A stretch of DNA of 54,298 bases from Bacteroidota bacterium (GTDB taxonomy: Bacteria > Bacteroidota > Bacteroidia > JABEUT01), in contig JABDGY010000008.1 in assembly GCA_013285805.1 (NCBI GenBank), positions 1 to 54,298 of the forward strand, given 5' to 3'. Of this stretch, positions 4,078 through 52,347 are shown piece after piece. A program made the position numbers and the translations under genes. The notes under the pieces were generated by a model. That model was not told the origin of the DNA. It worked only from the letters and a program-made list of their open reading frames with translations, and searched no databases. Numbering within the stretch: the stretch's first letter is position 1; every line of letters starts with the position of its first letter.

Positions 4078-7000
4078 ATGCAAAACTTCTACCGAATTTC
4101 CCGACTTACATTACTTGCCATTTTTTGTTTCAGCATAAGCAGTACGCTGAAAGCCCAGGTTATTTTAACCGATGCCGGTAACGGTACTTATGGTTATTCC
4201 GGCGACGGAAGTGCTGCCACAGCTTCAGAAGTGGAAACGCCTTACAGTGTGGTGGTTGACAAAGCAGGCAACATTTATATAGCCGATTATGGTGTAGACG
4301 TAATTCGTAAAGTCACTGTGTCAACTGGTATTATTACAACCCTTGCCGGAAGCGGTAACGCTAACTATTCCGATGGCTTAGGAACAGCAGCCTCTTTTAA
4401 TGGCATTGAAGGTTTAGCCATTGATACTGCATCAGGTAACCTTTATGTGGCCGATGCCAATAACCAACGCATACGTATGGTTACACCGGGAGGCGTAGTA
4501 ACAACCATTGCAGGAACAGGTACTGCCGGTTTCTTTGGCGATGGCGCTCCTGCATCAGGCTGCCAGTTAAACTACCCTTCAGGGGTTGCAGTAGATAAAT
4601 CAGGTAATATTTACATAGCTGATAATGCCAATAACCGTATTCGCGAAATAACGGGAAGCACCATAAACACTATTGTAGGTAATGGAACAGCAGGGTTTGC
4701 TGGTGATGGTGCTGCGGCTACTCTTGCTGAATTGAATGCCCCCTCCTGCATAGCGGTTGATAAAGCTGGCAATATTTATATAGCAGATGCATCTAACCAA
4801 CGTATACGTAAAGTAAATGCAATAACACAGACCATTTCAACTATTGCAGGTAATGGTAATACCGGTTATATTGGAACAAATATACCGGCTACAAACGCCC
4901 AGTTATACAACCCCTGGGGAATTGCCGTTGATGCGAGTGGTAATGTTTACTTTGCCGATCAGAGTAATAATATGATAGAGGAGGTATTTGCCAGTAACGA
5001 TAGTATTACTCTTCTTGCAGGCTTTGGCCAGTATTCATACGGCTATAATGGCGACCATATACCCGGAATAAATGCCGAATTATATACTCCATTGGGATTA
5101 GCTATAGATGATTCTTCTAATATTTATTTTGCCGATGAGAATAATTACAGGGTTAGGGAATTAAAAGTAACAGGGCCCAATATTGTGGTAGAACCGCAGT
5201 CAAATGATAATGTTTGCCCGGGTGCACCTACCTATGTTAGCATTGTCACTTCGGGAACCGGTGTTACCTATCAGTGGTTAGTAGATTCCAATTATTCCAA
5301 CTGGGATACCGTTAAAAATGGCGCAGTTTATTCCGGCGCTACGTCTGATACACTTAAATTTAACGTGGGCACGCAACAGGGAAATAGCTATCAGTATATG
5401 TGCGTTATTAATAACGGATACGAAACTTCCACTGTTGGCAATGTTTATATCAATTATCTTCCTAATGTTAATCTGGGTTATCCAACCGACAGTATCTGCC
5501 CCGGTACACCTACGCAAATAAGCGCATGGATAGGTGGCGGTAGCCGTATTAAACCTTTACATCATCCGGCAGTGCCTGCCAGCGGTATTTTATGGAGCAC
5601 CGGCGATTCTACCGATACAATTACGGTAATGCCATTGGTTACCACCAAATATACTGTTACAGCTACTCAGAGTGGATGCTCTGTTACCGATACCATTACT
5701 GTTGATGTTGACCGTACTAAGGTTTCCGTTAAAGCATTCCCGTCAACATCAGTTTGTTCGGGTAATACTGTTACTTTATTCGGCCAGGGTGTAAGCTCAT
5801 ATTCATGGAGCAGTGGTATTAATAACGGGGTAGGGTTTACCCCGCCGGGAACAAGTACATATACTGTAACCGGTGTTGACGATATAGGATGTTTAATAAA
5901 AGATAGCGTAACCATAACCGTGAATCCATTGCCGGTAGTTACAATTACCTCAACCTCGGCTACCGATACAATATGCCAGGGAACCAGCCTCACCCTTTCG
6001 GGCGGAGGAGCTGTTTCATATAACTGGAGCGGAGGGGTAGTTAATAATACTGCTTTCACTCCTTCATCTTCCGAGGTTTACTACCTCACCGGAACCGATG
6101 CTAATGGCTGTTCAGGCACTACATCTATTCCTATCACCGTTGCTCCATTACCTGTTATAACGGGTACTGCTTCACCTTCAACTGTATGCGCGGGCGGTTC
6201 AGTTACACTTACAGGTAACGGTGGTTCATCATACGTATGGAGCGGTGGTGTTACCAATGGCGTTGCTTTTACCCCGGTTACTTCGGGAACATATACAGTT
6301 ACAGGCACCGATGCAGCAGGCTGCACCGGAAGCGGCCAGGTAATCATTACCGTTTCGCCCAAGCCAATCATTACAGCTAATGCATTCCCTTCCGCTACCT
6401 TGTGCGAGGGTTCTTCAGTAGCATTATTCGGCGGAGGCGGCGTTTCATATGCATGGAGCGGCAGTGTAAACAATGGCGTTTCTTTCAACCCAACATCTTC
6501 AGGCACATATACTGTTACCGGAGTTGATGTTAACGGTTGTTTCAATAAAGATTCAATAATGATAACCGTTAATAAAAAAGTTGTTATTACACCTGTCACT
6601 TCAAACACTTCATGCGGATTGAAGAATGGTTCAGCTTCAGTAATAGCATCCAATGGCCTTCCTCCTTACACTTACTTATGGAGTACGACCCCTGCGTCTA
6701 CCAGTTCTTCGGTTGACAGCCTTGGAGCAGGAACTTACGTAGTTACCGTTTCCGATTCTGCAAAGTGCCCTTCAACCCTTGTTATTGGTATTGGCGCTTC
6801 AACGGCACCTATTTTATCGGTTACCACTACCCCTAGCAATTGCGGCACGGTAGGTACAGGTTCGGCTTCGGTATCAGTTACCGGCGGTACCGCCCCTTAC
6901 AAGCTTATGTGGAACAATGGTGATACCCTTGCTAATGATTACAACCTGAAAGCAGCCACCTATATTATTACCGTTACCGACGTAAACGGCTGTTCTACTT

Positions 7001-8559
7001 TTGCCCCTGGCATTGTTACCAATGCCAACGGCCCTAAAATTTCTATCTCTTCGCAATCGAATGTAAAATGTTACGGCAGTACTTCAGGCGCACTATCAGT
7101 TTCTGTTTCAGGCGGTGTTTCTCCTTACACCTACTTATGGTCGAATGGAGCTACCACCTCAGCAATTGGCGCACTGCAAGCCGGGCCCTACCAGCTTGTG
7201 GTTATGGATGCCGACAGTTGCACCAGCGTAATGAGCTTTAACATTACACAGCCTGCGGCACTCACACTTACATCATCTATAGTTAAATCAGACTGCGGTG
7301 TTTCCGATGGCGATGCTTCGGTAGCAGTAAGCGGCGGAACTTCTCCTTTCACATACGCATGGAACAATGGTGCAACTACTTCAAATAACACATCGGTTAT
7401 GGCCGGTGTTTATGAAGCGACTGTAACGGATGGTAATGGTTGTATAGATTCTGTAGCTGTTGCTGTAAGCGATAAAACAGGCCCTACCGTTTCTCTTGAC
7501 GTAACGGCTAATGCAGGTTGCGGAAGTGGTGGTTCTGTTACTGCCACAGCAACGGGTGGAGCTTCGCCTTACACTTATACATGGTCTGATGGGCTTACTT
7601 CCACATCAATATCGAATGTGCCTGCCGGTAACTACTTTGTTACTGTTACCGACCACCTTGGTTGCGTAGGTTCGGCCGATACTATTATCACCGAAACCGT
7701 ACCTGCGGTGCTTCCGATATGTATGGTTACTGTTGACTCAGCCAGCAGCCACAACCTTGTTATATGGGATAAAACAGTTGCCACAAATATTGACCATTAC
7801 AATGTTTATAAAGAAAGCACCACAGCAGGTGTATACTTCATGGTAGCTTCAGTACCATATACAAGCCCTGCTACCTATGTTGACTCGCTCTCTAACCCAA
7901 TGGTACGCAGCTGGAGGTATAAAATATCTCAGGTAGATACTTGCGGCAACGAGTCGCCTTTAAGCCCCGACCACAAAACCATGCACCTAACTGTGAACGA
8001 AGGTGTGGGTAACGTTATAAACCTGATTTGGGATAACTACGAAGGCCTCACATTCTATACATATTATGTATACAGGGACACCCTTCCGTTTACCTATACC
8101 AAGATTGACTCTATCCCGAATAACATTTTTACCTATACCGACCTGCACCCGCTGGTTACTAACAAAACAGCGCTCTATCACATAGGTATTGATAACCCGG
8201 GTAGCTGTACTCCGTTGCGTACACTGGCTATCAATTACAATTCATCCAAATCGAACTCGGGTAATATTGTATTTGTACCAACCGGTATCGCCACAGTATC
8301 TGATTTGAACAATTGCTCGGTATATCCTAATCCTTCCAATGGCAGGGTAACTGTAAGTATGAATCTTTCGCAGAATACGCAGAGCCTGTCGCTGAAAGTG
8401 ATTAACACACTGGGTCAGGAAGTATATGCTCAATCATATTCAAGAATTGGCGGACAATTCACGAAAGAACTCGATCTCTCTGACTTAGCTAAGGGAGTTT
8501 ACTTCCTCAAGTTGTCAGATAATCAATCGACCGTATACAAGAAGATTGTGTTGCAATAA
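4078..8559 (+). CDS. Giant T9SS-secreted NHL/SprB-repeat surface protein, tandem paralogue of the preceding gene
   Basis: A 1493-residue protein starting with a Sec signal peptide (cleavage after S-T-L-K-A-Q, about residue 27). Residues about 30-365 hold six or so NHL repeats of the type G-N-I-Y-I-A-D-x-x-N-x-R-I-R, expected to form a beta-propeller. An Ig-like region (365-550) and four Cys-framed Ig/PKD-like repeats (about 545-830) follow, then five SprB-like repeats (about 839-1200), an FN3-like region (about 1215-1400) and a type A T9SS sorting domain from N-C-S-V-Y-P-N-P (about 1410) to the end. It begins 54 bases after its paralogue, and the C-terminal third of the two proteins is nearly identical. 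A strong terminator follows, so the pair probably forms one transcript. Likely a cell-surface adhesin; the substrate cannot be read from sequence. Confidence 0.93.
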   Translation: MQNFYRISRLTLLAIFCFSISSTLKAQVILTDAGNGTYGYSGDGSAATASEVETPYSVVVDKAGNIYIADYGVDVIRKVTVSTGIITTLAGSGNANYSDGLGTAASFNGIEGLAIDTASGNLYVADANNQRIRMVTPGGVVTTIAGTGTAGFFGDGAPASGCQLNYPSGVAVDKSGNIYIADNANNRIREITGSTINTIVGNGTAGFAGDGAAATLAELNAPSCIAVDKAGNIYIADASNQRIRKVNAITQTISTIAGNGNTGYIGTNIPATNAQLYNPWGIAVDASGNVYFADQSNNMIEEVFASNDSITLLAGFGQYSYGYNGDHIPGINAELYTPLGLAIDDSSNIYFADENNYRVRELKVTGPNIVVEPQSNDNVCPGAPTYVSIVTSGTGVTYQWLVDSNYSNWDTVKNGAVYSGATSDTLKFNVGTQQGNSYQYMCVINNGYETSTVGNVYINYLPNVNLGYPTDSICPGTPTQISAWIGGGSRIKPLHHPAVPASGILWSTGDSTDTITVMPLVTTKYTVTATQSGCSVTDTITVDVDRTKVSVKAFPSTSVCSGNTVTLFGQGVSSYSWSSGINNGVGFTPPGTSTYTVTGVDDIGCLIKDSVTITVNPLPVVTITSTSATDTICQGTSLTLSGGGAVSYNWSGGVVNNTAFTPSSSEVYYLTGTDANGCSGTTSIPITVAPLPVITGTASPSTVCAGGSVTLTGNGGSSYVWSGGVTNGVAFTPVTSGTYTVTGTDAAGCTGSGQVIITVSPKPIITANAFPSATLCEGSSVALFGGGGVSYAWSGSVNNGVSFNPTSSGTYTVTGVDVNGCFNKDSIMITVNKKVVITPVTSNTSCGLKNGSASVIASNGLPPYTYLWSTTPASTSSSVDSLGAGTYVVTVSDSAKCPSTLVIGIGASTAPILSVTTTPSNCGTVGTGSASVSVTGGTAPYKLMWNNGDTLANDYNLKAATYIITVTDVNGCSTFAPGIVTNANGPKISISSQSNVKCYGSTSGALSVSVSGGVSPYTYLWSNGATTSAIGALQAGPYQLVVMDADSCTSVMSFNITQPAALTLTSSIVKSDCGVSDGDASVAVSGGTSPFTYAWNNGATTSNNTSVMAGVYEATVTDGNGCIDSVAVAVSDKTGPTVSLDVTANAGCGSGGSVTATATGGASPYTYTWSDGLTSTSISNVPAGNYFVTVTDHLGCVGSADTIITETVPAVLPICMVTVDSASSHNLVIWDKTVATNIDHYNVYKESTTAGVYFMVASVPYTSPATYVDSLSNPMVRSWRYKISQVDTCGNESPLSPDHKTMHLTVNEGVGNVINLIWDNYEGLTFYTYYVYRDTLPFTYTKIDSIPNNIFTYTDLHPLVTNKTALYHIGIDNPGSCTPLRTLAINYNSSKSNSGNIVFVPTGIATVSDLNNCSVYPNPSNGRVTVSMNLSQNTQSLSLKVINTLGQEVYAQSYSRIGGQFTKELDLSDLAKGVYFLKLSDNQSTVYKKIVLQ

Positions 8560-9769: not shown

Positions 9770-11272
9770 TTAGAGAATTGTTCTTGCCATTAGAAAGAAA
9801 TTCGTATAAATATAAGTAGATTTTGACTGCAATATTTCTTTCTTATTCTTGTATAGAAAATTACAAAAATTTACCAGTAATTTATTTTCTTCAGTATCAA
9901 ATTGCTTTGTAAATTCACTTTCATCTATACCATTAATATTTGGATTAAGGCTTGGTATATTCTTTGGAGTAAAAAGGCTCAAGAATCTTATAAAACTTCT
10001 GAAGTTATGCTGTGGACTACTGTTATTAAGCGCCTTATTCGACTCATCCGCTCGCTTAACAATATCTGTTAGAGTCAATCCACCGATGGAATTGAAGCAA
10101 AAGGCTTGATTTCCGTCTTTAATTTGACTTAGCGCCCCAGTGAAGTCTCCAGCATTTGGTTTTCCCAACTCTTGATTCTTTCTAGCATATTCTATTACTT
10201 TACTATCATAGTCCTCCAACTCTGTAAAGGTTTCAGGATAATATTCATATGTGATAATAATGAATAGAGTTAGGATAATTTCTAAAAAATTATCCGTTTC
10301 ATTATTAAAAATATTAGGCACCAATCCGCTCCAATTCCTATGAGTACCAACCGAAATCATAGTTCTTAATATTTCTAATTTATTGAAAACTTTTTTAACA
10401 TGGCGGGGGGTTCTAAAGTTAATAGCTTTCAAAAACTCCTCTATCTTATCAATATCTTTTGAAAAATATTCACCAATTAATGGTTTCAAGTTGTTGCTTT
10501 GAGGCATCCCAAATGAAATATCGAAAACTTTTTCAAGGTATTCATCTGATTTTATTACATTACCGTATTTTGTTTTAACAGCACTCGTAACAGCATCTCT
10601 ATCAACACCAAAAAAGAAAATGGTTCTCTTGCCTAATGAGAAAAAAAGTTTGATACTACTCAATAGTGCGAGCATATTTTCTGGCTCACATCTATCTAGA
10701 TCATCTATGAATACGATTAGTCTTTGGTTCTCTTCAAGAATTTCATCTTCCATTTTTTGGAATGACTCTTTAAACTCTTTGATTTTCTTAAAGAATGAAC
10801 CTTCCTTCTCTACTTTCTCATAATACTTATTCAGCGCTTCCTGTTGCTTATCAACATCATATTCAATCCCTATACCTAATATGTCTGGCGTTTTTATTGT
10901 TAATCCCCTAAACATATTAACAAAAAAAGCTGCTGATTCCTTAATAAATGCCTTTACTGCTTTTCCTCTTTTTAATTCACTGGTAATTGCATCAACCAAG
11001 GAGAGCGCTAGATTATCATCTTTTTCATGTTCCCACGCAGTAAAAAAAATTGTTTTGTATTGTTTGCCAACCTCTAATTCTTTCTTAATAAAATTCATTA
11101 GGGTCGATTTTCCGCTTCCCCATTCGCCAAAAAGTACAATCATATTATTACCGTTCAACGCATCACCTGCACTTTCAAGAAAGTCCCAGATTGCAATTCC
11201 TTTTGTTTTTAAGTTAAAATGGTCGGACGTATTTTTTTCAATTTCTACATATCTATTAGATAATAATTTCAT
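9770..11272 (-). CDS. KAP-family P-loop NTPase
   Basis: 500 residues. Walker A G-E-W-G-S-G-K-S is at 49-56 and Walker B I-V-F-I-D-D-L-D at 186-193, followed by R-C-E-P-E-N, the typical KAP/STAND-like signature. A conserved R-T-P-R-H-V-K-K segment lies in the C-terminal half, where KAP proteins carry their helical sensor region. I see no convincing membrane helix between Walker A and B, unlike many KAP members. The gene is clearly richer in A+T than its neighbours. KAP NTPases include PifA, which mediates T7 exclusion by plasmid F, so an anti-phage or stress role is possible, but no other defence gene sits beside it. Function is unknown; family is confident. Confidence 0.85.
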   Translation of the reverse strand: MKLLSNRYVEIEKNTSDHFNLKTKGIAIWDFLESAGDALNGNNMIVLFGEWGSGKSTLMNFIKKELEVGKQYKTIFFTAWEHEKDDNLALSLVDAITSELKRGKAVKAFIKESAAFFVNMFRGLTIKTPDILGIGIEYDVDKQQEALNKYYEKVEKEGSFFKKIKEFKESFQKMEDEILEENQRLIVFIDDLDRCEPENMLALLSSIKLFFSLGKRTIFFFGVDRDAVTSAVKTKYGNVIKSDEYLEKVFDISFGMPQSNNLKPLIGEYFSKDIDKIEEFLKAINFRTPRHVKKVFNKLEILRTMISVGTHRNWSGLVPNIFNNETDNFLEIILTLFIIITYEYYPETFTELEDYDSKVIEYARKNQELGKPNAGDFTGALSQIKDGNQAFCFNSIGGLTLTDIVKRADESNKALNNSSPQHNFRSFIRFLSLFTPKNIPSLNPNINGIDESEFTKQFDTEENKLLVNFCNFLYKNKKEILQSKSTYIYTNFFLMARTIL

Positions 11273-39352: not shown

Positions 39353-42300
39353 ATGGAAAATAAAACACGTTTATTTACAGCAGGCACATTATTGTTCTTT
39401 CTTACAACCGGCACAATATTGAATGCCCAAAAAGAAGTTAAGCTTGTCAACTCGGGTGAAATACTTCAAAGAGGTTCTGATTTAATGGATTCAGGCAAAT
39501 ACGATGAAGCATCGGCATTGTATGAACAGGTTTCCCGGAACGATACCAACTATATGATGTGCGTTTATAAAGATGTGCTAAGCCGTATATCTGCAGGGGA
39601 AGACAGCGCGGCTATACCCTTATGCAGGAAAGATATTGCACTAAATACTGAGTACACCCCTGCATGTTATAAATTCCTTTGCGATGCTTACACCGACCTG
39701 GAGAAATACGACGATGCCGTTAAGCTTATGCAGGACACCGTTATTCCTAAATATCCTACCCTTTACTACTTACATTATTCTTTAGGCCTTGCCTATTATA
39801 AATCGCACCGGTACGACAGCGCTATTGCATGCTTTGAACGGTCAATTACACTTAATGTTTTTGATGCTTCCAGCCATTATTACCTTGGCAAATGCTGCCT
39901 TGAACAAGGACGTATGATACCGGCTCTTTTATCATTCCAGTTCTATTTGCTTTTAGAACCGCTTTCTACCCGTTCTTTTGCCACCATTCAACTTATAGAA
40001 CAGGTTAGCGAAGGAAAATACGATTACAATAAAGCTACCATGGTTGACCCTTCAAAATACCATGACGATGATTTCCAGGACCTTGACCTTATTATTAAAT
40101 CGAAGGTGGCTTTGAATGATGATTATAAGGCCAAGACAAAAATTTCATACGGCGTTATTAAGCAGTGCCAGTTGTTTATGGAAAAGCTTACCTATACGGC
40201 CAAGAGCGGTAATTTCTGGATGGAAACTTATGTGCCTTTCTTTGTAGCCTTGCAGAAAAACGACTACTTTGAACCTTATGCCTATTTCATTGTTGGCTCT
40301 ATAAACAATGATGATTTGCAAAAGGATATTGCAAAAGAAAAAAGGAAGATAGACGATTTTACTACCTGGGCCGGAAAGCAGATAAGAGATTCGAGGAATA
40401 CTAAAGAAGTAATGGTTGATGGTAAGAAAAAAACCATGTCGTATGTTTATTACGATAACCATGTAACGGAAGCCATGGGGGAAGAAAATTCAAAACAGAA
40501 AAGCGTTGGGGAATGGACCATATACAACCAGTTTACCGGTACCCTTGAAGCGAAAGGTGTTTTTAACGATAATGGCGAGCGAGACGGGCAATGGGTATCC
40601 TATTACTATAACGGAGTAATGAAGGAACGCACCAATTACAAAAATGGTAAACGTGAAGGTTTATCCGAATCGTGGTACGTGAATGGGGCGCAAAAAGCCA
40701 CTTATAATTTCCAGGACGATAAACTGAGCGGAGATGCGAAAGAATTTACTTCGTCGGGTACACCCAGTACTGTTGGCGCTTATAAAAATGATAAACCTAC
40801 TGGTGCGGCAACTGTTTATTACAGCAATGGTAAACAACATTACCTGGTAAATTATTCTGATATAGGCCTTGACGGAGAACAGAAGGAATATTACCTGAAT
40901 GGCCAGCAGCAGCTTTCTTCCAACTATAAAAATGGCAAGAAAAACGGCGCATTTACGGAATACTGGTCAAACGGTAAGGTAGAAGACCAGGGCGCATACA
41001 AAGACGATAACCCTGTTGGCGAATGGAAATATTATTACCGCGATGGCTCCTTGCATAAAGATGGTTCATTTAACAACGATGGCAAGTCTATTGATACATG
41101 GACAACCTATTACAGGAATGGCAAAAAATCGGAGGAAATAAATTACAACAAAACAGGCGATTTGAATGGTTCCGATATACTTTATGATGATGACGGAATT
41201 AAAGATGCCGACTTTGAATACCGCAACGGTACATTGCAGGGCATGCAGTTTTTCGATAAAAGCGGCAAGGTAACCGTCGACAAAAAATCATCGGGTGGTA
41301 AATTGGCGTATGAGAATTATTATGCCAGCGGTATTAAATACAGTGAAGGTGATATGACGAACGGCAAGCGCTCGGGCCATTGGAAGTTTTATTCCAATAC
41401 CGGCCTTCTTTCCAGTGAAGAAAATTATAAAGATGGTTTGTTGAGTGGCATGAGAATGGAATATTACCTCGACGGAAAAGTGAAAGATTCGTTGAACTAT
41501 TCGAATGACATGGCCAACGGGCTATACCATGCATACTATGAAAACGGGCAACTGAAATCGACCGGCTGGTATGTAGACGGGCAGGAAGAAGGCGACTGGT
41601 ATTTCTATAACCAGCGCGGCGCCGTGAGCAACCACCGTTACTTTCTTCGCAATCAAATTTATGGCTATGCCGATTATTACGATGTTAACGGCCGCTTATC
41701 AGCCGAAGAATATACCAACCCGCTGGGTTATTTTGACAAGGCATGGCTTTACGACAGCACCGGAACCAAAGTAGTGTTTTCCTATGCTTCTGACAAAGGA
41801 AATGGTAACTATAAACCTACCTATAGTAACGGACAGGTAAAGTTTGACCGCACCTATGTAGCGGGTAATTCCGACGGGCCTGAAAAGTCGTATTACCCTG
41901 ATGGAAAGGTATCTCTTGAATGCACTTATGTATCCGATAACCTGCAGGGAAAATATACCGCTTATTATGATAATGGTAGCATAAGAGAAGTAAATAATTA
42001 CGACCTGGGGTATTTAGACGGAACCACCCACAGCTATTACCGCAACGGCAAACTAAGGAATGAGAATAATTATTCTGAAGGAGACCTAGACGGACCGTTT
42101 TCGGAATATTATGAAGATGGCCGCATAAAACGCACCGGCTATGATGTAGACGGAAGCATAACCGGGGAATCGAGGAGATACTTTGAGGACAGTGTTTTAT
42201 ATTGCGTTACCTGGTATAAGAGCGATGTAATTACAGGTTATTCATACCCGGGTAAAGATGGCAAACTTGTTCCGACAATTAATGTAGATAAGGGAACCTG

Positions 42301-42664
42301 CAATGTGGTGTGCTACTATGCTAACGGAGCAAAAGCGCTTGAAAACACATACACTAATGGAGAACTTAACGGGAAAAGAACAACCTATACCCCCGACGGT
42401 AAAGTATATATAGAAGAGAATTATTCCTGGGGTAATGAGGAAGGCCCTCAGAAGTTTTACTACAAAAGCGGCAAGTTGAAGTCGGAAGAAAATTACTCTA
42501 TGGGCAATAAAGACGGGGTTTGCCGTTATTATTATGAGACCGGAAAATTAGAACACGAGGAATATTGGGTGCTGGGCAACCGCCAGGGCACTTTTAAGTA
42601 TTACGATAAGATGGGAAAGCTTCTTAAAACTGAGGTATATTATAACGACAGTCGTCTACAATAA
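39353..42664 (+). CDS. Exported TPR protein with about 30 tandem MORN_2 (YwqK-type) repeats
   Basis: 1103 residues. A signal peptide (ending I-L-N-A-Q, about 25) is followed by TPR-like helices (about 30-240; L-G-L-A-Y-Y-K-S-H-R-Y-D-S-A-I and similar), a linker (to 385), then from Gly386 to the end about 30 repeats of roughly 24 residues with the core G-x-x-x-x-Y-Y-x-N-G-K-x-x-x-x-x-x-Y-x-x-G. This is the MORN_2 / 'YwqK family antitoxin' repeat, which forms a long beta-ribbon. A few units (about 590-680 and 740-790) are worn. The protein is presumably periplasmic or surface-exposed. Only 5 bases separate it from the next gene. Function unknown; no toxin partner is evident. Confidence 0.9.
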   Translation: MENKTRLFTAGTLLFFLTTGTILNAQKEVKLVNSGEILQRGSDLMDSGKYDEASALYEQVSRNDTNYMMCVYKDVLSRISAGEDSAAIPLCRKDIALNTEYTPACYKFLCDAYTDLEKYDDAVKLMQDTVIPKYPTLYYLHYSLGLAYYKSHRYDSAIACFERSITLNVFDASSHYYLGKCCLEQGRMIPALLSFQFYLLLEPLSTRSFATIQLIEQVSEGKYDYNKATMVDPSKYHDDDFQDLDLIIKSKVALNDDYKAKTKISYGVIKQCQLFMEKLTYTAKSGNFWMETYVPFFVALQKNDYFEPYAYFIVGSINNDDLQKDIAKEKRKIDDFTTWAGKQIRDSRNTKEVMVDGKKKTMSYVYYDNHVTEAMGEENSKQKSVGEWTIYNQFTGTLEAKGVFNDNGERDGQWVSYYYNGVMKERTNYKNGKREGLSESWYVNGAQKATYNFQDDKLSGDAKEFTSSGTPSTVGAYKNDKPTGAATVYYSNGKQHYLVNYSDIGLDGEQKEYYLNGQQQLSSNYKNGKKNGAFTEYWSNGKVEDQGAYKDDNPVGEWKYYYRDGSLHKDGSFNNDGKSIDTWTTYYRNGKKSEEINYNKTGDLNGSDILYDDDGIKDADFEYRNGTLQGMQFFDKSGKVTVDKKSSGGKLAYENYYASGIKYSEGDMTNGKRSGHWKFYSNTGLLSSEENYKDGLLSGMRMEYYLDGKVKDSLNYSNDMANGLYHAYYENGQLKSTGWYVDGQEEGDWYFYNQRGAVSNHRYFLRNQIYGYADYYDVNGRLSAEEYTNPLGYFDKAWLYDSTGTKVVFSYASDKGNGNYKPTYSNGQVKFDRTYVAGNSDGPEKSYYPDGKVSLECTYVSDNLQGKYTAYYDNGSIREVNNYDLGYLDGTTHSYYRNGKLRNENNYSEGDLDGPFSEYYEDGRIKRTGYDVDGSITGESRRYFEDSVLYCVTWYKSDVITGYSYPGKDGKLVPTINVDKGTCNVVCYYANGAKALENTYTNGELNGKRTTYTPDGKVYIEENYSWGNEEGPQKFYYKSGKLKSEENYSMGNKDGVCRYYYETGKLEHEEYWVLGNRQGTFKYYDKMGKLLKTEVYYNDSRLQ

Positions 42665-42669
42665 CGCAT

Positions 42670-44619
42670 ATGCATTTTAAACGCAACATAGTAACTCTGG
42701 CAGGGTTAACTCTCTGCGCTTTATCATTATTACCTGCGACAAACGCATTGGCACAGAAAGATGATATTTATGCCCAGTTGCGTAAGAAATACGCCGATGA
42801 AAATGCAGTATATGTTTCGCGTAAAGAGGATGTTGAAATTAAGTTCGAGAAGGACCAACCCATGATTTACACTAATACATACGAAGACCTTTTAATGCTT
42901 ACCGATAAAACTTCGGAATATATTGACCGCAGTGTTTACTGGTCGAGTTTTTCAGATATACAGGACCTGGATGTACGAACTATGGTGCCCGATGGCAGCC
43001 ATTATAAAGCCCTTAAGGTAAAAGACTTCCAGAAGACCAATGAATTTTCGGAAGGCACTTTTTATGACGATGCCCGTTCGTATAAATTTATATACCCCGG
43101 GGTGGTAAACGGCGCCCGCGAAGTTCTTTCTTACACCGAGAAATTGAAAGACCCTCATCTCTTCGGCCATTTTTATTTCAGTTCATTTGCCCCTGAAGAA
43201 GATGTGGAATACTCTGTTACTTTTCCTTCGAACGTTAAAATACATTACAAGCTTTTTAACGTAAAGGACAGCACATTGCAGTTTACATCGAAAGTAAGCG
43301 GTAAAAGCACCACCTATACCTGGAAAATGCATGGTGTAAAGAAACTTAAGATAGATGAAGATGCCGCAAATCTTAGTTACTATATACCCGGTGTAATTGT
43401 TCTTATTGACCAGTACACCGACAAGGATGGAAAAGTTGTAAGGGTACTTGGAGACACCAACGATTTGTATAACTGGTATTATGGCCTGGTTAAAGATGTA
43501 AACAAAACTGTTTCACCCGAACTGAAAGCCGTGGTTGATTCCATTACAGAGGGCGTTACCGATAGCCTGGAAAAAGTAAGGCGTATATTTTACTGGGTAC
43601 AAAACCAGATAACCTATATTGCTTATGAAGACAGCCTTGGCGGTTTTGTGCCGCGTGAGGCATCGTTGGTTTGTTCACGCCGCTTCGGAGATTGTAAAGA
43701 TATGGCCACCACGCTCACAGAAATGATACGCGCGGCAGGATTGCAGGCTTACCAGGTATGGATAGGCACACGGGATATTCCATACACCTTTGCCGATGTG
43801 CCTGCGCCTATGGCCACCAACCACATGATATGCGCCTATGTGCAGGATGGAAAATATTATTTCCTCGATGCCACGGGCAAACATTCCCCGTTTGATTTTC
43901 CAACATCAATGATACAAGGTAAGCAGGCTCTGGTAGGTATGGGCGAAGGGAAATACCGCATTGTGCCTGTGCCTGTTATGGATACTGCACGTAATATATA
44001 TACCGATAGCGTGCACATGAGCCTCGACCAGGCTATGATAAAAGGCTCGGGCAGGGTGAGCGCTAACGGGTATGATAAAATTATAATGGGATGGAGGTTG
44101 CAAAACGTTGATAAGAAAAACGAACATACGTATATGACAGGCCTTTTACAGAAAGGCAATAACAAGTTTAATTTAGACAGCTATTCATTCGACAACCTTA
44201 CTAACCTTGATAAGGACCTGCAGATTAACTATAATTTCAGCCTGAGTGATTATGCGCAGAAAAACGGAAACGAGCTATACATAAATATGCAGCTTGAGAA
44301 AACGCTCATGAACGACTTGCTGCAACCCGACCGGGAAGCGCCTAAAGAAATTGAATTCAAACATATTGACAAGGGTATTAATACCCTTGAAATACCTGCA
44401 GGCTATAAGGTATCGTACCTGCCTGAGAGCACAAGCTATAATGGCCCGCTGGGTGGTTTTAAAATAAGTTATTACACAAAGGGTAACACAATTGTAAACG
44501 AGAGCTATATTTACATCAACACACTGATGGTTTATCCTAAAGATTTCCAGGAGTGGAACAAAATGATACGCTCGCTGAGCCGCGCTTACAATGAATCTGT
44601 TACTCTTATAAAACAATAA
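42670..44619 (+). CDS. DUF3857 protein with intact transglutaminase-like domain
   Basis: 649 residues. A signal peptide (to about residue 29, A-L-A-Q) precedes a DUF3857 beta-domain (about 50-235), then a transglutaminase/protease-like fold (about 295-415) and a C-terminal beta region (DUF2569-like position, 430-649). The thiol triad is complete: Cys342 in R-F-G-D-C-K-D-M-A, His385 in T-N-H-M-I and Asp400 in F-L-D-A-T-G. Such envelope proteins could crosslink or cut proteins, but no substrate is known. The next gene encodes a paralogue that lacks the triad. Confidence 0.9.
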   Translation: MHFKRNIVTLAGLTLCALSLLPATNALAQKDDIYAQLRKKYADENAVYVSRKEDVEIKFEKDQPMIYTNTYEDLLMLTDKTSEYIDRSVYWSSFSDIQDLDVRTMVPDGSHYKALKVKDFQKTNEFSEGTFYDDARSYKFIYPGVVNGAREVLSYTEKLKDPHLFGHFYFSSFAPEEDVEYSVTFPSNVKIHYKLFNVKDSTLQFTSKVSGKSTTYTWKMHGVKKLKIDEDAANLSYYIPGVIVLIDQYTDKDGKVVRVLGDTNDLYNWYYGLVKDVNKTVSPELKAVVDSITEGVTDSLEKVRRIFYWVQNQITYIAYEDSLGGFVPREASLVCSRRFGDCKDMATTLTEMIRAAGLQAYQVWIGTRDIPYTFADVPAPMATNHMICAYVQDGKYYFLDATGKHSPFDFPTSMIQGKQALVGMGEGKYRIVPVPVMDTARNIYTDSVHMSLDQAMIKGSGRVSANGYDKIIMGWRLQNVDKKNEHTYMTGLLQKGNNKFNLDSYSFDNLTNLDKDLQINYNFSLSDYAQKNGNELYINMQLEKTLMNDLLQPDREAPKEIEFKHIDKGINTLEIPAGYKVSYLPESTSYNGPLGGFKISYYTKGNTIVNESYIYINTLMVYPKDFQEWNKMIRSLSRAYNESVTLIKQ

Positions 44620-44629
44620 AATACCCTTT

Positions 44630-46633
44630 ATGCTCCGTAAACTTTCTGTCTGCCTGCTGGCCATTTTTGTCTCTGTAAATTTATATGCCCAAAGCAGTTT
44701 ATTCGACACCCACCCCGACCCTGAATACAAAAGCTATCATTGGGATGAAGCCCCTCACCTGCACGACCTTACTGCCGATGAAGAGAAGCGCAACGAGGTG
44801 GTGATAAAAGATAAACGCATTTTAGAATATGCTTACAACGAGCACGATTCACTTGTAATGTATATAACCCACCATTACATTGTTCGTGTAAACTCCGACA
44901 AGTCTATTGAAGAAAATAATACTGTATACATTCCCTTGGGCGACGGAGTAAAAGTTGTTGATGTGCAGGCGCGCGCCATAAGCAAGGAAGGTAAGATTAC
45001 CAACCTTGACCCCAAGAATGTTAAGAACGTAGATAATTATGAAAACCTTGGCCCGTTCCGGATTTTTGCCATTGACGGTATTGAACTAGGAAGTGAAGTG
45101 GAATACCTGTATACCGTAAAGCGCCCTTATCGTATTTCAGGTGAGGAATATGTAAGGCGTACAGCTTTGCACAAAGATTTATGCGTAGATATTTACTCAC
45201 CTACTTACCTGGTATTCCTGGCAAAAAGCTACAATGGTTTCCCCGATGTGAAGGTAGATTCATCTAAGACAACCAAGCGCCACATTTATGCGGAAGGGCA
45301 CGATGTGGAAGGTTTCGACCATGAAGAATTTTCGGCAGAAGATGGCGCGCTCATGCGACTTGAATATCTCATTGCATACAATAAAGGACGTGATGCCGAT
45401 ACTCGCCTTTATTCATACAGCGATTTCTGCCAGCGATTGTTCGACCTGCTGAATAAAAGTATTACCAAGCAGGATACTAAAACAGCGGAGAAAGTGGTTG
45501 ACACTATGAAAATTAAAAACCTGGGCGATGAGGATAAAATACGCTACATAGAAAGCCGCCTTAAGAATAGCATTGCCATTAAAGAAGACGTGCCCGATGA
45601 TAAAGCCATGTCCTTGCCCGATGTATTTAAAGACCATGTTACAAGTGAATATGGAGCCCTTAAATTATATAATATGATTTTTGATGCTGCCGGAATAAAG
45701 TATGAACTGGTATCTACATCCGATCGTTTTGATAAAGCATTCGATGGCGACTTTGATACATGGACCTACCTGCAGAAGTTCGTCTATTACTTCCCTTCCA
45801 CCGGCGACTATATAGCCCCAACAGAAGCAGCATATCGTTACGGTTTCATTCCTTTTAACTGGACATGCCAGAAAGGGTTTTTTATGCATTCTATAACCAT
45901 TGGTAAAGATGTGCAGACAGGTGTTGGTAAGGTTAAAGACATACCCTGCAACGACTACAAAAAAAGCATGAACGTGCTAAATGCCGATTGTAAGTTCGAC
46001 TTTGATATGGGTGTGGTGAATATGCATTATAAAATAAGTACTACCGGTTATGAGGCTTTAGGTATGGCGCAACCTTATTACGGCTATCTCTCGGACCAGG
46101 ACAGAAAAGACTTTTCTACCAAGGTCTTCCAGGGCTATTTCCAGGATTCTAAACCGACTAATATAAAGGTATCTGGGTACGACGAAAAAGACATTTTACG
46201 TAACCCGTTTGTGGTTGAAGCCGACTTAAGCACTAACACAGTGTTGGAAAAAACAGGCAACAAATACCTGTTTAAAATAGGGCAGATAATTGGCCCGCAA
46301 AGTCAACTTTATCGCGATACCGTTCGCCATACCCCAATCGAAAACCAATTCAACCATGGCTACCACCGCGAAATTTCTTTCCAGGTACCCGAAGGGTATA
46401 AAGTAACCAACCTAGACGCAGCTAATATGGATGTGTACGATGGAAAGGCCACCGATGCACATACATTAGAGTTTCATTCATACTATAAAATTGATGGCGA
46501 TAAAGTAACTGTGTATTGCGATGAATATTATTCGCAATTACGTTACCCGATAAACATGTATGACGTATTCCGCAATGTAATTAATGCCTCAGCCGATTTT
46601 AACAAAATTGTGCTGGTGCTGGAAAAGAAATAA
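44630..46633 (+). CDS. DUF3857 protein with degenerate transglutaminase-like domain
   Basis: 667 residues with a signal peptide (ending N-L-Y-A-Q, residue 22) and a DUF3857 domain (about 60-235). By eye alignment the following region keeps the transglutaminase fold (A-L-K-L-Y-N-M-I-F-D-A-A-G-I against A-T-T-L-T-E-M-I-R-A-A-G-L), but Glu340 stands where the catalytic Cys should be, and the His and Asp motifs are also lost. A binding or regulatory role beside the active paralogue is likely (inference). It starts 10 bases after that gene and overlaps the next by one base. Confidence 0.86.
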   Translation: MLRKLSVCLLAIFVSVNLYAQSSLFDTHPDPEYKSYHWDEAPHLHDLTADEEKRNEVVIKDKRILEYAYNEHDSLVMYITHHYIVRVNSDKSIEENNTVYIPLGDGVKVVDVQARAISKEGKITNLDPKNVKNVDNYENLGPFRIFAIDGIELGSEVEYLYTVKRPYRISGEEYVRRTALHKDLCVDIYSPTYLVFLAKSYNGFPDVKVDSSKTTKRHIYAEGHDVEGFDHEEFSAEDGALMRLEYLIAYNKGRDADTRLYSYSDFCQRLFDLLNKSITKQDTKTAEKVVDTMKIKNLGDEDKIRYIESRLKNSIAIKEDVPDDKAMSLPDVFKDHVTSEYGALKLYNMIFDAAGIKYELVSTSDRFDKAFDGDFDTWTYLQKFVYYFPSTGDYIAPTEAAYRYGFIPFNWTCQKGFFMHSITIGKDVQTGVGKVKDIPCNDYKKSMNVLNADCKFDFDMGVVNMHYKISTTGYEALGMAQPYYGYLSDQDRKDFSTKVFQGYFQDSKPTNIKVSGYDEKDILRNPFVVEADLSTNTVLEKTGNKYLFKIGQIIGPQSQLYRDTVRHTPIENQFNHGYHREISFQVPEGYKVTNLDAANMDVYDGKATDAHTLEFHSYYKIDGDKVTVYCDEYYSQLRYPINMYDVFRNVINASADFNKIVLVLEKK

Positions 46634-46965
46634 TGAACATTGAAGACATACAGGCATTCTGCAAAAAGCTCCCCGGTGTTAAAGAAGATATAAAATGGGG
46701 CGCTGACCTTTGTTTTTGCATAGTAGAAAAAATGTTCTGCGTGGTGCCGCTCGAAGGCGAGCTAAGCATAACCCTTAAAGTGCGCGACGATGAGTTCGAC
46801 GAACTTGTTTCACGCGAAGGAATTATTCCGGCAAAATATTTAGCACGTAATAAATGGATAACAATTAAAGATATTACAGTGCTTAACCGGAAAGAATTGG
46901 AAGGTTATATAAAACAATCGTATGAAATTGTTAAATCTAAACTGCCCCGCAAATTGAGGAAGTAG
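46633..46965 (+). CDS. MmcQ/YjbR-family protein
   Basis: 110 residues. It matches the YjbR fold: I-Q-A-F-C-K-K-L-P-G-V-K-E-D-I-K-W-G near the start, F-C-V-V-P-L-E-G, L-K-V-R-D-D-E-F-D-E-L, P-A-K-Y-L-A-R-N-K-W-I and a C-terminal helix E-G-Y-I-K-Q-S-Y. These small cytoplasmic proteins have a CyaY-like shape and are often called DNA-binding, without much proof. The one-base overlap (TAATG) couples it to the DUF3857 gene. Confidence 0.88.
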   Translation: MNIEDIQAFCKKLPGVKEDIKWGADLCFCIVEKMFCVVPLEGELSITLKVRDDEFDELVSREGIIPAKYLARNKWITIKDITVLNRKELEGYIKQSYEIVKSKLPRKLRK

Positions 46966-46967
46966 TT

Positions 46968-47408
46968 ATGCCCAACACCAAAAATATTCCCTTCTTTTTT
47001 GTGCTCGATTACCTTATGCCGTTGGAGCCCTATATAAAACCATTCTTTGGTTGTTACGGGGTTTATGTGGGTGAAAAAATAGTATTCATTTTACGAGATA
47101 AAAAATCTCACCCTGAAGTAAACGGGGTATGGATAGCTACCGACCACCAACATCATAAAAGCCTGAAGAAAGAATTTCCACCACTCTGTTCAGTATCGGT
47201 ACTCAACGATGGAAAGGGTGCCACCGGCTGGCAAATGCTGCAGGCCGAAGCCGACGACTTTGAACCATTGGTTGTGAAAGCCTGTGAACTTGTGTTGCAT
47301 GGCGACCCACGCATTGGCAGAATACCCAAACCTAAAGCCAAGAAAAAGAAGAAGATAATTCCACCGCAGAAAAAAGCACCCACAAAACCGAGGAGGAAAA
47401 CAAAATAA
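46968..47408 (+). CDS. Small protein with a strongly basic C-terminal tail, unknown function
   Basis: 146 residues, starting 2 bases after the MmcQ gene. A compact N-terminal domain (about 1-118) with G-C-Y-G-V-Y-V-G-E-K-I-V-F-I-L-R-D and W-I-A-T-D-H-Q-H-H recurs, as far as I remember, in Bacteroidota as a conserved hypothetical. Residues 119-146 are almost only Lys, Arg and Pro, a tail that could bind nucleic acid. Its stop codon abuts the stop of the convergent hydrolase gene with no gap. Confidence 0.78.
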   Translation: MPNTKNIPFFFVLDYLMPLEPYIKPFFGCYGVYVGEKIVFILRDKKSHPEVNGVWIATDHQHHKSLKKEFPPLCSVSVLNDGKGATGWQMLQAEADDFEPLVVKACELVLHGDPRIGRIPKPKAKKKKKIIPPQKKAPTKPRRKTK

Positions 47409-48392
47409 TTACTGCTTCTTTCCTATAAAGTCCTCTATATCTTTTACCAGTTTATCATTTATAGGCAAGGCAGGGTTATTATACGTTGCCACATTTGCCT
47501 GGCGATCAATTGGCGCCATTTTCAGAACATGGTTCATGCCTGTTATAGTATCGAGTGTAGCCGATGGGTTTGCTTGTTTTAATCGTAAGGCATCATCTAC
47601 TCCTACCTGTATATCTGTTGTGCCTTGAATAATTAATACTGGTATAGCCAGTCTTTTAATCAATACCTGTGGGTCGAACTTAAACCATGATATCATATAA
47701 GGCTGTACAGTTGGCCTGAACAGTGTATATAAACTTATCGGGAATTTTAATACTGTTTTACCTGCTACCAAACTATCAATAATTGCGTATGCGGTATCTT
47801 TTAGCCCGGCAGGCAAATTACTTAATTGTCGCTTAATTGCCTTATCAGCGGTTTCTCCAACACCTGCCAATGATACATATCCGGCCACATTATGTTCTGC
47901 CGCAACCATACCAATTAAAGAACCTTCGCTATGGCCTACAATATAAACGCCTGAAAAACGCGAATCACTTTTCAGAGATTCAACCCAAGCAATGGCATCG
48001 TCAACATAATTGTCGAACCTTAAAGTAATTTCACTTTTCATGGCAGCTTTACTTTCGCCAACGCCACGTTTATCATAACGCAGGGTTGCTATACCTGCCT
48101 CACTTAATTTATGTGCCAGTTGTTTAAAGGCATCTGTTTTTAAGCCAAGTGTTGGGCTGTTACAATCTCTGTCAGTCGGGCCTGAACCTGCAATAAACAA
48201 TGCAACGGGTATCTTGCCGCTTGCATTTGCAGGCACGCATAAGGTGCCATAAATATTTCCGGTTGGTGTTTTAAGGGTGTCTTCAGCTTCAATAAAAATA
48301 GCTTTATCAGGAGCAGGCGAATTAGCTTGCTGCTGCTGTGCGTGGCTGCAACCTATTACAAAAAGGCTAAGAAGAAATGTAAGGCGTTTCAT
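47409..48392 (-). CDS. Alpha/beta-hydrolase lipoprotein (serine esterase-like)
   Basis: 327 residues with lipobox V-I-G-C (Cys15). The nucleophile elbow G-H-S-E-G has Ser155; Asp260 (I-Q-G-T-T-D) and His287 (G-M-N-H) complete the triad. The oxyanion loop is I-A-G-S-G-P-T-D-R-D, typical of the YpfH/Hydrolase_4 serine aminopeptidase-like branch common in Bacteroidota. It hydrolyses an ester or amide in the envelope; substrate unknown. Single gene, convergent with the MORN/DUF3857 operon. Confidence 0.9.
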   Translation of the reverse strand: MKRLTFLLSLFVIGCSHAQQQQANSPAPDKAIFIEAEDTLKTPTGNIYGTLCVPANASGKIPVALFIAGSGPTDRDCNSPTLGLKTDAFKQLAHKLSEAGIATLRYDKRGVGESKAAMKSEITLRFDNYVDDAIAWVESLKSDSRFSGVYIVGHSEGSLIGMVAAEHNVAGYVSLAGVGETADKAIKRQLSNLPAGLKDTAYAIIDSLVAGKTVLKFPISLYTLFRPTVQPYMISWFKFDPQVLIKRLAIPVLIIQGTTDIQVGVDDALRLKQANPSATLDTITGMNHVLKMAPIDRQANVATYNNPALPINDKLVKDIEDFIGKKQ

Positions 48393-48498
48393 ACTATTTT
48401 ATGTTTTAATTATTGCACAAAAATATATATATTTTTAATATAATTGAATATTTACTTAATTTTATTTATTTTATTATTCATTATATTAATATAAATAC

Positions 48499-48506
48499 TA
48501 TATTTG
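48499..48506 (+). promoter_or_regulatory. -7 promoter box (TATATTTG) of the DUF2089 gene
   Basis: A perfect TAnnTTTG box, 19 bases before the start codon, at the end of an extremely AT-rich 90-base stretch (about 48415-48505) that could act as an UP-element or protein-binding region. No TTG stands at -33. Confidence 0.5.
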
Positions 48507-48525
48507 TGTCATAAAATTGATTCCT

Positions 48526-48819
48526 ATGCTAAAGAAACTTCCACATGTCTGCCCCAGTTGCGCATCGCCATTACGGGTTAAAAGCCTTATATGCGGTAAT
48601 TGCGCCACCGAAGTATCGGGCGAATTCGAGCTTCCCTTACTGGCAAGCATACCGTTAGACGACCAGCAGTTTATACTCGATTTTGTAAAAAGTAGCGGCA
48701 GTCTTAAGTTAATGGCCGAGAAACTGAAGCTTAGTTACCCGACTGTTAGAAACATGCTTGACGATATTATTAAGCGTGTGGAGCAGAATGAAAAACTTTC
48801 AAACTCGAATAAGAAATGA
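48526..48819 (+). CDS. DUF2089 zinc-ribbon/HTH regulator
   Basis: 97 residues from the ATG at 48526; an in-frame TTG three codons earlier is less likely. Two Cys pairs (C-P-S-C and C-G-N-C) form a zinc ribbon in the first 30 residues, followed by a helix-turn-helix (L-M-A-E-K-L-K-L-S-Y-P-T-V-R-N-M-L-D-D). DUF2089 proteins are presumed transcription regulators. Its stop overlaps the start of the membrane-protein gene (ATGA), so the two likely act together, the regulator perhaps controlling its own operon. Confidence 0.87.
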   Translation: MLKKLPHVCPSCASPLRVKSLICGNCATEVSGEFELPLLASIPLDDQQFILDFVKSSGSLKLMAEKLKLSYPTVRNMLDDIIKRVEQNEKLSNSNKK

Positions 48820-49388
48820 AAAAGTGGTTGTTTAATCCTTTTGTATACATAGCCGGGGTACGTGCTTTACTCATAGGTGGAGGAATAATGATTATAACGG
48901 CAGTAGTTGCATTTTACAGCCGCGCCCATTTCGACGGGGCATTGGATATGCATTGCGGCGCCCCTACCCAATTCTGGCAATCATGGCTTGAATCATCCGT
49001 TGATTTGGCAAGCCTGACAATACCCTTCTATATTTTAGGGCGCATTTTTTCCGATACTACAGTTCGTCTTATAGATATTGTAGGTACTGTGGCTTTGGCC
49101 AGGTGGCCTATGCTGCTTCTGGCTCTATTAGCATTTATGCCTGTCCCCTATCCTACAGGTGATATGCCTTCTATGAATGAAATATTTAAACTGCTGGCCA
49201 ACCCTTATTTTATTGTACAGGTAATACTCACCATACCTTTAATAGTGTGGAATGTTGCATTGTTATACAATGCCTATTCGGTTTCTACAAACCTGAAAAA
49301 AGGAAAAGCGGTTGTAACATTTATAGCAGGGTTGATAATTGCTGAAGTGTTATCGAAAGTTACATTGGCCGAGCTTTTGCATAAATAA
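48816..49388 (+). CDS. Integral membrane protein, YIP1-like, partner of the DUF2089 regulator
   Basis: 190 residues with five hydrophobic helices (about 14-33, 60-77, 86-108, 128-150, 162-182) and short loops, reminiscent of Yip1-domain proteins. It is translationally coupled to the DUF2089 gene. Its role is unknown; a membrane sensor or sequestering partner of the regulator is one option (inference). Confidence 0.78.
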   Translation: MKKWLFNPFVYIAGVRALLIGGGIMIITAVVAFYSRAHFDGALDMHCGAPTQFWQSWLESSVDLASLTIPFYILGRIFSDTTVRLIDIVGTVALARWPMLLLALLAFMPVPYPTGDMPSMNEIFKLLANPYFIVQVILTIPLIVWNVALLYNAYSVSTNLKKGKAVVTFIAGLIIAEVLSKVTLAELLHK

Positions 49389-49400
49389 CCTCACCTGGAG

Positions 49401-50285
49401 TCAACAGGCGTAATATACCCTTACCAGTATCTTATTCCCCTTTCTCCATCTTATCCAGCCCTGCTCTCCATAGTCGCCGCTATACACCTCTACATTCATC
49501 CAGTCTCCTTTCATTATGACTGTTGCCCTATTATTTACCATAATACCTTCGGCACGCCATATTTTACTCGCTCCTGCCAGGTTTTTAATTACTGTTGAGC
49601 TATCGTTTGGTTCCTTTCTTAAAGGATTTTCTTCCCTGTTAAAATCGCATCCAAGTCCTGTGTGTTCCTCAATAAATTGCGCCACCGTTTCATACCGGAA
49701 ACTCCTGTCTTTGATTTTTATGTACCCCCTTAAATTTTTCTTCTTGTTATAAATCACCTCATAGTACTTATCTGTTCTTTTCATACAGTCCATCGTTAAG
49801 GAGAAATAATCAGGGTTAGGTACAAACTCCCTGGGGTCGAAAAAATCAAAGAATTGAGGCTCTAAGGTGTCCGCCCTATATTTCTTGTTTTTATAAAATA
49901 CCCCCACTCCATTGCAGGAATCACTTTCACAATGTTCTATCGTGAGCATTATTTTACCGGTTGAATCATAAATCCAGTACTTTTCATCGAAACCCGTTAT
50001 TTCCATTATTCCAATTCCTCTGATACTATCCTCCGGCCTGAATTCTGCATCTTCTATTGAATCTCTAAGCTTCTTTTGTTTATCCGTTAATGTGTCGGCA
50101 GGATTATATTTATTCTGCACCAAATCAACATTAGGAAGTTTTGAATGAGAATCGTTTGGCATAACATCTTGTTTCTTGAAAAAATGTACGGTGTCCCCTT
50201 CATTTACTTTTATGGGCACACTATTGTTTCTGCAAGCTACCAGGCTTATTATACAAAACAGGATTATAAAATGCCTTGGGTACAC
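49401..50285 (-). CDS. Lipoprotein of unknown function with SH3-like C-terminus
   Basis: 294 residues. The start is GTG at 50285; an in-frame stop five codons upstream excludes anything longer. Lipobox S-L-V-A-C (Cys18). The middle is Asp-rich and charged. The C-terminal 60 residues (G-D-W-M-N-V-E-V-Y-S-G then G-W-I-R-W-R-K-G-N-K) resemble a bacterial SH3 barrel. Family not recognised beyond that. Convergent with the YIP1-like gene. Confidence 0.72.
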   Translation of the reverse strand: MYPRHFIILFCIISLVACRNNSVPIKVNEGDTVHFFKKQDVMPNDSHSKLPNVDLVQNKYNPADTLTDKQKKLRDSIEDAEFRPEDSIRGIGIMEITGFDEKYWIYDSTGKIMLTIEHCESDSCNGVGVFYKNKKYRADTLEPQFFDFFDPREFVPNPDYFSLTMDCMKRTDKYYEVIYNKKKNLRGYIKIKDRSFRYETVAQFIEEHTGLGCDFNREENPLRKEPNDSSTVIKNLAGASKIWRAEGIMVNNRATVIMKGDWMNVEVYSGDYGEQGWIRWRKGNKILVRVYYAC

Positions 50286-51153: not shown

Positions 51154-52347
51154 ATGTATAACGAAGCATTCCAACACCACTTACAGAACGAATTAAAAGC
51201 CATTGACGAGGCGGGCCTTTACAAACGCGAACGCATTATAATTACTCCGCAAGGAGCCGATATAAAAGTGCAGGGCGGCAAAGAGGTGATTAATTTCTGC
51301 GCCAATAACTACCTGGGCTTGTCATCGCACCCCGAGGTTATTGCTGCAGCAAAAAAGGCTTTGGATACACATGGTTATGGAATGTCGTCGGTGCGATTTA
51401 TTTGCGGTACGCAAGACATCCACAAAACACTGGAAGAAAAAATATCGAAGTTCTTAGGAACTGAGGACACGATTCTCTATGCGGCTTGCTTTGATTCTAA
51501 TGGAGGTGTGTTTGAACCTTTGTTTACCGAGCAAGATGCAATAATATCTGATGAACTTAACCATGCATCAATTATTGATGGTGTGCGCCTTTGCAAAGCC
51601 AAACGTTACCGTTACAAAAACTCTGATATGGCTGACCTTGAAGCGCAATTACAAGCAGCCAAGGCCGATAGGTTTAAGATTATTGTTACCGATGGTGTAT
51701 TTTCAATGGATGGCTACATTGCCAAGCTGAAAGACATTGTTGCCCTGGCAGAAAAATATGGTGCGCTTGTAATGGTTGACGATAGCCATGCAACTGGCTT
51801 TGTGGGTAAGACCGGCCGCGGTTCACATGAACATAACGAAGTTATTGGCAAGATTGATATACTTACAGGTACACTCGGCAAAGCTTTGGGTGGCGCCATG
51901 GGCGGATATACCAGCGGTAAAAAAGAAATTATTGATATGCTCCGCCAACGTTCACGTCCTTACCTGTTTTCAAACTCACTTGCACCTGTAATTACAGGCG
52001 CAGCTATTACAGTATTTGATTTATTGAGTAATACCACAGAATTGCGTGATAAGGTAATGAATAACGCTTTGTATTTCCGCGAAGGAATGACCAAGGCAGG
52101 ATTTGATATTAAGCCGGGCATACATCCCATTGTACCCGTTATGTTATACGATGCCAAACTATCGCAGACAATGGCCGACAAGCTTTTAGAGGAGGGTATT
52201 TATGTAATCGGCTTCTTCTACCCTGTGGTAGCTAAAGGACAGGCGCGTATAAGGGTTCAGTTATCAGCAGCGCATACCAGGCAGCACCTCGATAAAGCCA
52301 TTGCAGCGTTTACCAAGATTGGCAAGGAGCTTGGGGTGGTAAAGTAA
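51154..52347 (+). CDS. kbl: Glycine C-acetyltransferase (2-amino-3-ketobutyrate CoA ligase)
   Basis: 397 residues, the family length. A PLP-dependent alpha-oxoamine synthase that cleaves 2-amino-3-ketobutyrate with CoA to glycine and acetyl-CoA, the second step of threonine breakdown. The PLP lysine is Lys243 in [10 protein letters not shown]. Other marks are [20 protein letters not shown] and V-D-D-S-H-A-T-G-F. No threonine dehydrogenase gene is adjacent. Related serine palmitoyltransferase or KAPA synthase is less likely given the F-I-C-G-T-Q-D-I-H wording. Confidence 0.95.

Follow-up and report, generated by a model that had tools for sequence, protein, structure and literature searches.

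Proteases, transglutaminases, acetyltransferases and other members of the transglutaminase-like superfamily share a single Cys-His-Asp triad (PMC4866520). Among the domains that occur with this fold, DUF3857 is common in Bacteroidota yet scarcely mentioned in the open-access literature, where its name turned up in a single incidental mention, and the only solved DUF3857/DUF3858 protein that we found (PDB 3KD4) is titled 'putative protease'. In Xanthomonas campestris, a DUF3857 gene (AAW18_RS09795) lies directly upstream of lolA, the gene for the outer-membrane lipoprotein chaperone (PMC6341742), a neighbourhood that hints at envelope biology in another phylum. MORN repeats are better described: the nine repeats of MORN1 extend ~80 Å, MORN4 binds a protein partner through an aromatic groove, and such repeats are not to be assumed lipid binders without evidence (PMC7725318). 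Here, we analyze a 54,298-nucleotide stretch of Bacteroidota DNA, contig C8 of a 60%-complete metagenome-assembled genome (G000), which we call the window. It encodes an exported TPR-MORN protein (A), an exported DUF3857 protein with a transglutaminase fold and an intact triad (B), and a catalytically dead DUF3857 paralogue (C), followed by a YjbR protein (D) and a small protein with a basic tail (E). The domains of A, B and C are all known; what appears to be new is the module, which would place an enzyme and a pseudoenzyme from the DUF3857 family on a scaffold of repeats. In the open-access literature, a body that omits most subscription journals and preprints, we found no description of a module of this type.

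Proteins B and C and their co-inheritance

The five open reading frames (ORFs) all lie on the + strand, separated by 5, 10, -1 and 2 bp. A, B and C have signal-peptide-like N-termini, as do nearly all of their orthologues, judged by a hydropathy and motif check rather than by SignalP. A sequence-only reading of the window had already described this arrangement and spacing, the TPR and MORN_2 repeats of A, the DUF3857 domain of B and the YjbR fold of D, three exported products, a complete triad in B, and a paralogue of B that lacks it; our Pfam searches, alignments and N-terminal checks bear out all of these points.

B matches the Pfam families DUF3857 (PF12969; 1.1e-14, 55.2 bits, cut-off 24.6) and Transglut_core (PF01841; 1.5e-10, 41.7 bits, cut-off 23), and more weakly DUF3858. 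Its predicted triad, C342/H385/D400, is kept in 61/61 orthologues, and the catalytic core holds 22 of its 33 near-invariant positions, among them Y316, G325, P328, GDCK 340-343, W364, NH 384-385, D400 and Q416. An AlphaFold2 (AF2) model of B (mean predicted local distance difference test score, pLDDT, 92.8) finds 3KD4 as its top fold match in the PDB (E 1.8e-31, TMt 0.77). By these sequence criteria B is a DUF3857 protein with a transglutaminase fold, is exported, and never varies in its predicted catalytic triad.

C is homologous to B over its full length (hhalign: 598 columns, 16% identity, P 2.5e-35), and its AF2 model (mean pLDDT 93.6) has the same top match (3KD4, E 3.1e-23, TMt 0.67). 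This whole-length homology and common fold mark C as a DUF3857-fold protein, even though its own Pfam match to DUF3857 is weak (2.1e-4) and slightly below the cut-off. When C is considered as an active transglutaminase or peptidase, the triad is missing: E340, Y380 and A396 of the window copy align with Cys342, His385 and Asp400 of B, and all 70 orthologues lack the triad, the aligned residues being mostly E/D/A/S, Y/F and A/S. C is thus, as predicted from its sequence, a catalytically dead paralogue. Its conservation has also moved. Only 4 of its 25 near-invariant positions fall in the catalytic core, against 22/33 in B (p = 1.6e-4), and its near-invariant residues (N97, R115, K312, G551, P587, Y634, N652 and F657-K659) sit mostly in the flanking sandwich domains. 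We infer that this shift from core to sandwich is the signature of a protein retained for binding and not for catalysis.

The window's own order is sampled by 11 genomes of one genus, and we surveyed 384 Bacteroidia genomes outside it with profile and sequence searches using C, B, the TPR head of A, and E. The B set comprises proteins scoring at least 540 bits, a cut-off placed where the scores drop from 549 to 521 bits; the B of G256, truncated by the end of its contig, was included as well. With profile C, orthologues turn up in 65 of the 384 genomes, from 35 families. B and C occur together in these 65 genomes, neither occurs in the other 319, and no genome has one alone, which is the obligate co-occurrence expected of an enzyme-pseudoenzyme complex. 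The two are found together even where they are unlinked (G054, G206, G245 and G289) and, within the order, where they lie on different contigs (G001 and G008). With 35 families and zero exceptions, shared descent alone is an unlikely explanation for this pattern, and the constant company of B and C in the sampled genomes makes it very probable that the two function as a pair.

Gene order is conserved as well. Among 60 neighbourhoods of C outside the order, B adjoins C in 56 and the full order A-B-C is found in 43; measured from the longest ORF start, the A-B junction ranges from -80 to +60 bp and the B-C junction from -73 to +209 bp, and none of the loci measured there has neighbouring A and B, or B and C, in opposite orientation. 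A phylum-wide draw contributed a single further carrier from beyond the class, which has B-C but lacks A. Within the order, B and C are constant and D and E variable: A-B-C-D-E is found in G007 and G004, A-B-C-E in G010 and G009, and two loci cut by contig ends show B-C-E (G005) and C-D-E (G002), while G003 has B-C with neither A nor E adjoining, and no E was found in the two genomes with B and C on separate contigs.

Protein A and the proposed envelope module

A matches MORN_2 (8.6e-39, 127.4 bits, cut-off 29.6) and TPR (5.9e-13) in Pfam, and its TPR head matches solved structures. Across 47 orthologues of 1085-1137 aa the glycine register is maintained and the ribbon measures 730 +/- 8.6 residues, so that length stays nearly constant while the sequence drifts to ~25-30% identity: median identity to the window copy is 30%, and in about half of the orthologues it falls to 24-30%. 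Other MORN_2 open frames in seven of the same genomes range from ~150 to 640 aa. All 47 orthologues have a hydrophobic N-terminal stretch, 40 have a cleavage-like site after it, and none has a lipobox. Outside the order, A is found in 56 of the 384 genomes, 50 of which carry B-C. Of the six without B and C (G047, G086, G119, G150, G205 and G302; loci L168-L173), five belong to a single genus (g38). We also observed a TPR-like match around positions 1351426-1351989 of G354:C7, inside an extraordinarily long open frame of 24,197 residues.

We propose that A, B and C constitute one conserved envelope module of Bacteroidota, in which an enzyme-pseudoenzyme complex of B and C and a fixed-length scaffold, A, act on an envelope protein; on the comparative evidence we rate this reading at about even chances. 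B and C would assemble as a heteromer, with C as a binding or allosteric subunit that either presents substrate to B or controls it. B would act on an envelope protein by cysteine acyl-enzyme chemistry, either processing it proteolytically or transamidating it. A would provide the location for the complex, with the client or B/C bound by the TPR head and by the aromatic groove in the ribbon. The ribbon itself may serve as a spacer or ruler: ~30 repeats of ~0.9 nm would give ~27 nm, roughly the size of the periplasm. A bolder version, in which this undescribed and widespread module spans the periplasm, the ribbon setting the ~27 nm and carrying a heterodimer that processes or cross-links its client at a set position within the envelope, strikes us as speculative and rather unlikely. 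The data themselves yield a clean, testable unit, with an enzyme and its dead twin co-inherited in at least 35 families and a repeat protein of nearly constant length.

Several observations weigh against our proposal. Three further genomes encode B-like proteins at 506-521 bits and have no C orthologue; we take these proteins to be paralogues. A is absent from 15 of the 65 B-C genomes, and so is not needed everywhere. The correlation between B and C distances (r = 0.87) is mostly a product of shared species history, and both the genome counts and the Fisher p-values assume independent genomes, an assumption that does not hold. The localization of A, B and C is read from N-terminal sequence alone, and the periplasm-spanning length of A is arithmetic from a eukaryotic MORN structure.

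Obligate co-occurrence would also fit an enzyme and its substrate. C could be a binding protein or adhesin in its own right, and B a peptidase that matures C, or A, once they have been exported; the position of near-invariant C residues in the sandwich domains is compatible with such a role. The homology of C with B from end to end and the high-confidence model of its core are, however, what would be expected of a pseudoenzyme partner, and we see no conserved extra segment in C that resembles a processing site. We consider this explanation improbable, and put it on a par with a second, in which B is a true transglutaminase that uses transamidation to cross-link envelope proteins, the amine or acyl donor being templated by C. 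The Transglut_core match and the triad speak for transamidation, but other members of the superfamily, proteases and acetyltransferases included, use the same triad, and the nearest solved proteins bear protease titles. Since one triad supports such varied chemistries, cross-linking by B is just one of several options, and between cross-linking and proteolysis sequence cannot discriminate. Slightly less probable again is that the shared operon reflects a common regulon only, with A, B and C as independent envelope proteins induced together. The genomes with A and no B-C, and those with B-C and no A, fit this explanation; it sits poorly with B and C, which never come apart in our sample even when unlinked.

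Neighbouring genes and the surrounding window

D and E are immediate neighbours of C in the window (Table 1). D is a YjbR protein by Pfam (4.4e-16, 59.8 bits, cut-off 30.1); E matches no Pfam family and has no convincing solved homologue by comparison with the PDB. Six relatives within the order carry E after C, and D is present in three of them (G002, G004 and G007) and absent from the other three (G005, G009 and G010). Outside the order, neither D nor E occurs in any of the 60 C neighbourhoods, D is not found near E, and E, present in 36 of the 384 genomes, accompanies C in 5 of those 36, with no association (Fisher p = 0.77). On these co-occurrence data we leave D and E out of the system; they are probably hitch-hikers. 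That all five genes form a single machine for crosslinking or processing proteins, in which D and E serve as cytoplasmic regulators, draws on their tight spacing in the window and on the two relatives with the same five-gene order, but is contradicted by the patchy D, the absence of both genes from loci elsewhere and the independence of E from C, and is very improbable, leaving at most a lineage-specific role.

The sequence-only reading had put forward the five genes as a candidate undescribed system and named co-occurrence in the same order across Bacteroidota as the check. That check strongly favours A-B-C and B-C and goes against D and E, so the idea of an undescribed system holds for the three exported products, a scaffold-like protein, an enzyme and a dead paralogue, and fails for the five-gene set. 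The regulatory role it suggested for the two cytoplasmic proteins, and the membership of D, find no footing in the survey; its remark that no role for such a set is known agrees with our literature search.

Table 1. Features of the A-E locus, in window coordinates
Feature	Position	Strand	Description
A	39353..42664	+	1103 aa; exported TPR head (~residues 30-370) and ~730-residue MORN_2 ribbon (~30 repeats, 24 residues each)
Signal-peptide-like N-terminus of A (...GTILNAQ)	39353..39430	+	hydrophobic stretch, then Ala-x-Ala/Gln-like site
B	42670..44619	+	649 aa; exported; DUF3857, transglutaminase fold and C-terminal sandwich; intact Cys-His-Asp triad
B Cys342, in GDCKD	43693..43695	+	predicted nucleophile; invariant in 61/61 orthologues
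B His385 (NHMI)	43822..43824	+	invariant in 61/61 orthologues
B Asp400 (LDAT)	43867..43869	+	invariant in 61/61 orthologues
C	44630..46633	+	667 aa; exported full-length paralogue of B (hhalign), predicted catalytically dead
D	46633..46965	+	110 aa; YjbR/MmcQ fold; neighbour in some relatives, outside the module
E	46968..47408	+	146 aa; basic tail; neighbour in the window's order only, outside the module

Clustering the proteins that flank 65 neighbourhoods revealed no general neighbour that could be a further constant partner. The best candidate, an exported TPR protein of ~310 aa, abuts the module in eight loci from five families (L119, L147, L153, L114, L134, L138, L140 and L143), where it either precedes A or follows C; given how promiscuous similarity among TPRs is, this is a lead only. 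In family f39, the gene just upstream of B (L155 6651-7421 and L159 10009-10737) resembles, by eye, a monofunctional peptidoglycan transglycosylase. Downstream of E in the window, four genes (47409-50285: an alpha/beta hydrolase, a DUF2089 protein, a Yip1-like protein and an unknown) separate it from an aminotransferase gene (51154-52347). The first three of these also follow E in G010, and the aminotransferase gene comes nearly immediately after E in G002, G004 and G007.

Between positions 38601 and 47500 of the window there is no site for the Bacteroidota-type promoter TAnnTTTG, and sigma-70-type promoter matches in the window are close to shuffle level. Elsewhere, two adjoining giant proteins (79-4023 and 4078-8559) bear NHL beta-propeller repeats, SprB repeats and a Por_Secre_tail, the sorting domain of type IX secretion, and a KAP-family P-loop NTPase is encoded on the minus strand at 9770-11272.

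Relation to known systems

The ribbon of A has the hairpin repeats and regular spacing of glycine and aromatic residues seen in MORN1, MORN4 and bacterial proteins of the MORN_2/YwqK type, but differs from all of them in having ~30 repeats, a nearly fixed repeat number, a fused TPR head and export. The LIC20035 family adhesins (NCBIfam NF033566) have MORN_2-type repeats that match A at 127.4 bits, far under the cut-off of 250, and we reject A as a member of that family.

B has its triad in common with the transglutaminase-like cysteine proteases (PF01841; LapG, vasohibins and 3ISR), including the GDCKD, NH and LDAT contexts. Unlike them, it carries additional sandwich domains at both termini and comes as a pair with a dead paralogue. 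The fold match of both B and C to 3KD4 (BDI_1141 of Parabacteroides distasonis) covers nearly the whole chain, and 3KD4 is the sole PDB sequence match for profile B. Identity is 11-12%. In a profile alignment a proline of 3KD4 aligns with Cys342 of B (YGTPLE against YGDCKD), so that 3KD4 resembles C at this position and not B; this indicates that it lacks the catalytic cysteine, and its 'putative protease' title should not be transferred.

Three other DUF3857 tandems within the order or the class (G004:C30, G251:C85 and G002:C40; loci L037 5540-9835, L185 6104-10148 and L038 6030-9867) likewise have an active protein with a dead one immediately after it. They are distant relatives, scoring 84-130 bits, with their dead members at 99-130 bits against the large C profile compared with 474-768 for C orthologues, and no A orthologue was recognized alongside them in the stretches that were read. 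The recurrence of such tandems suggests that the pairing of an active with a dead protein, of which B and C are one instance, is a general theme of the DUF3857 family.

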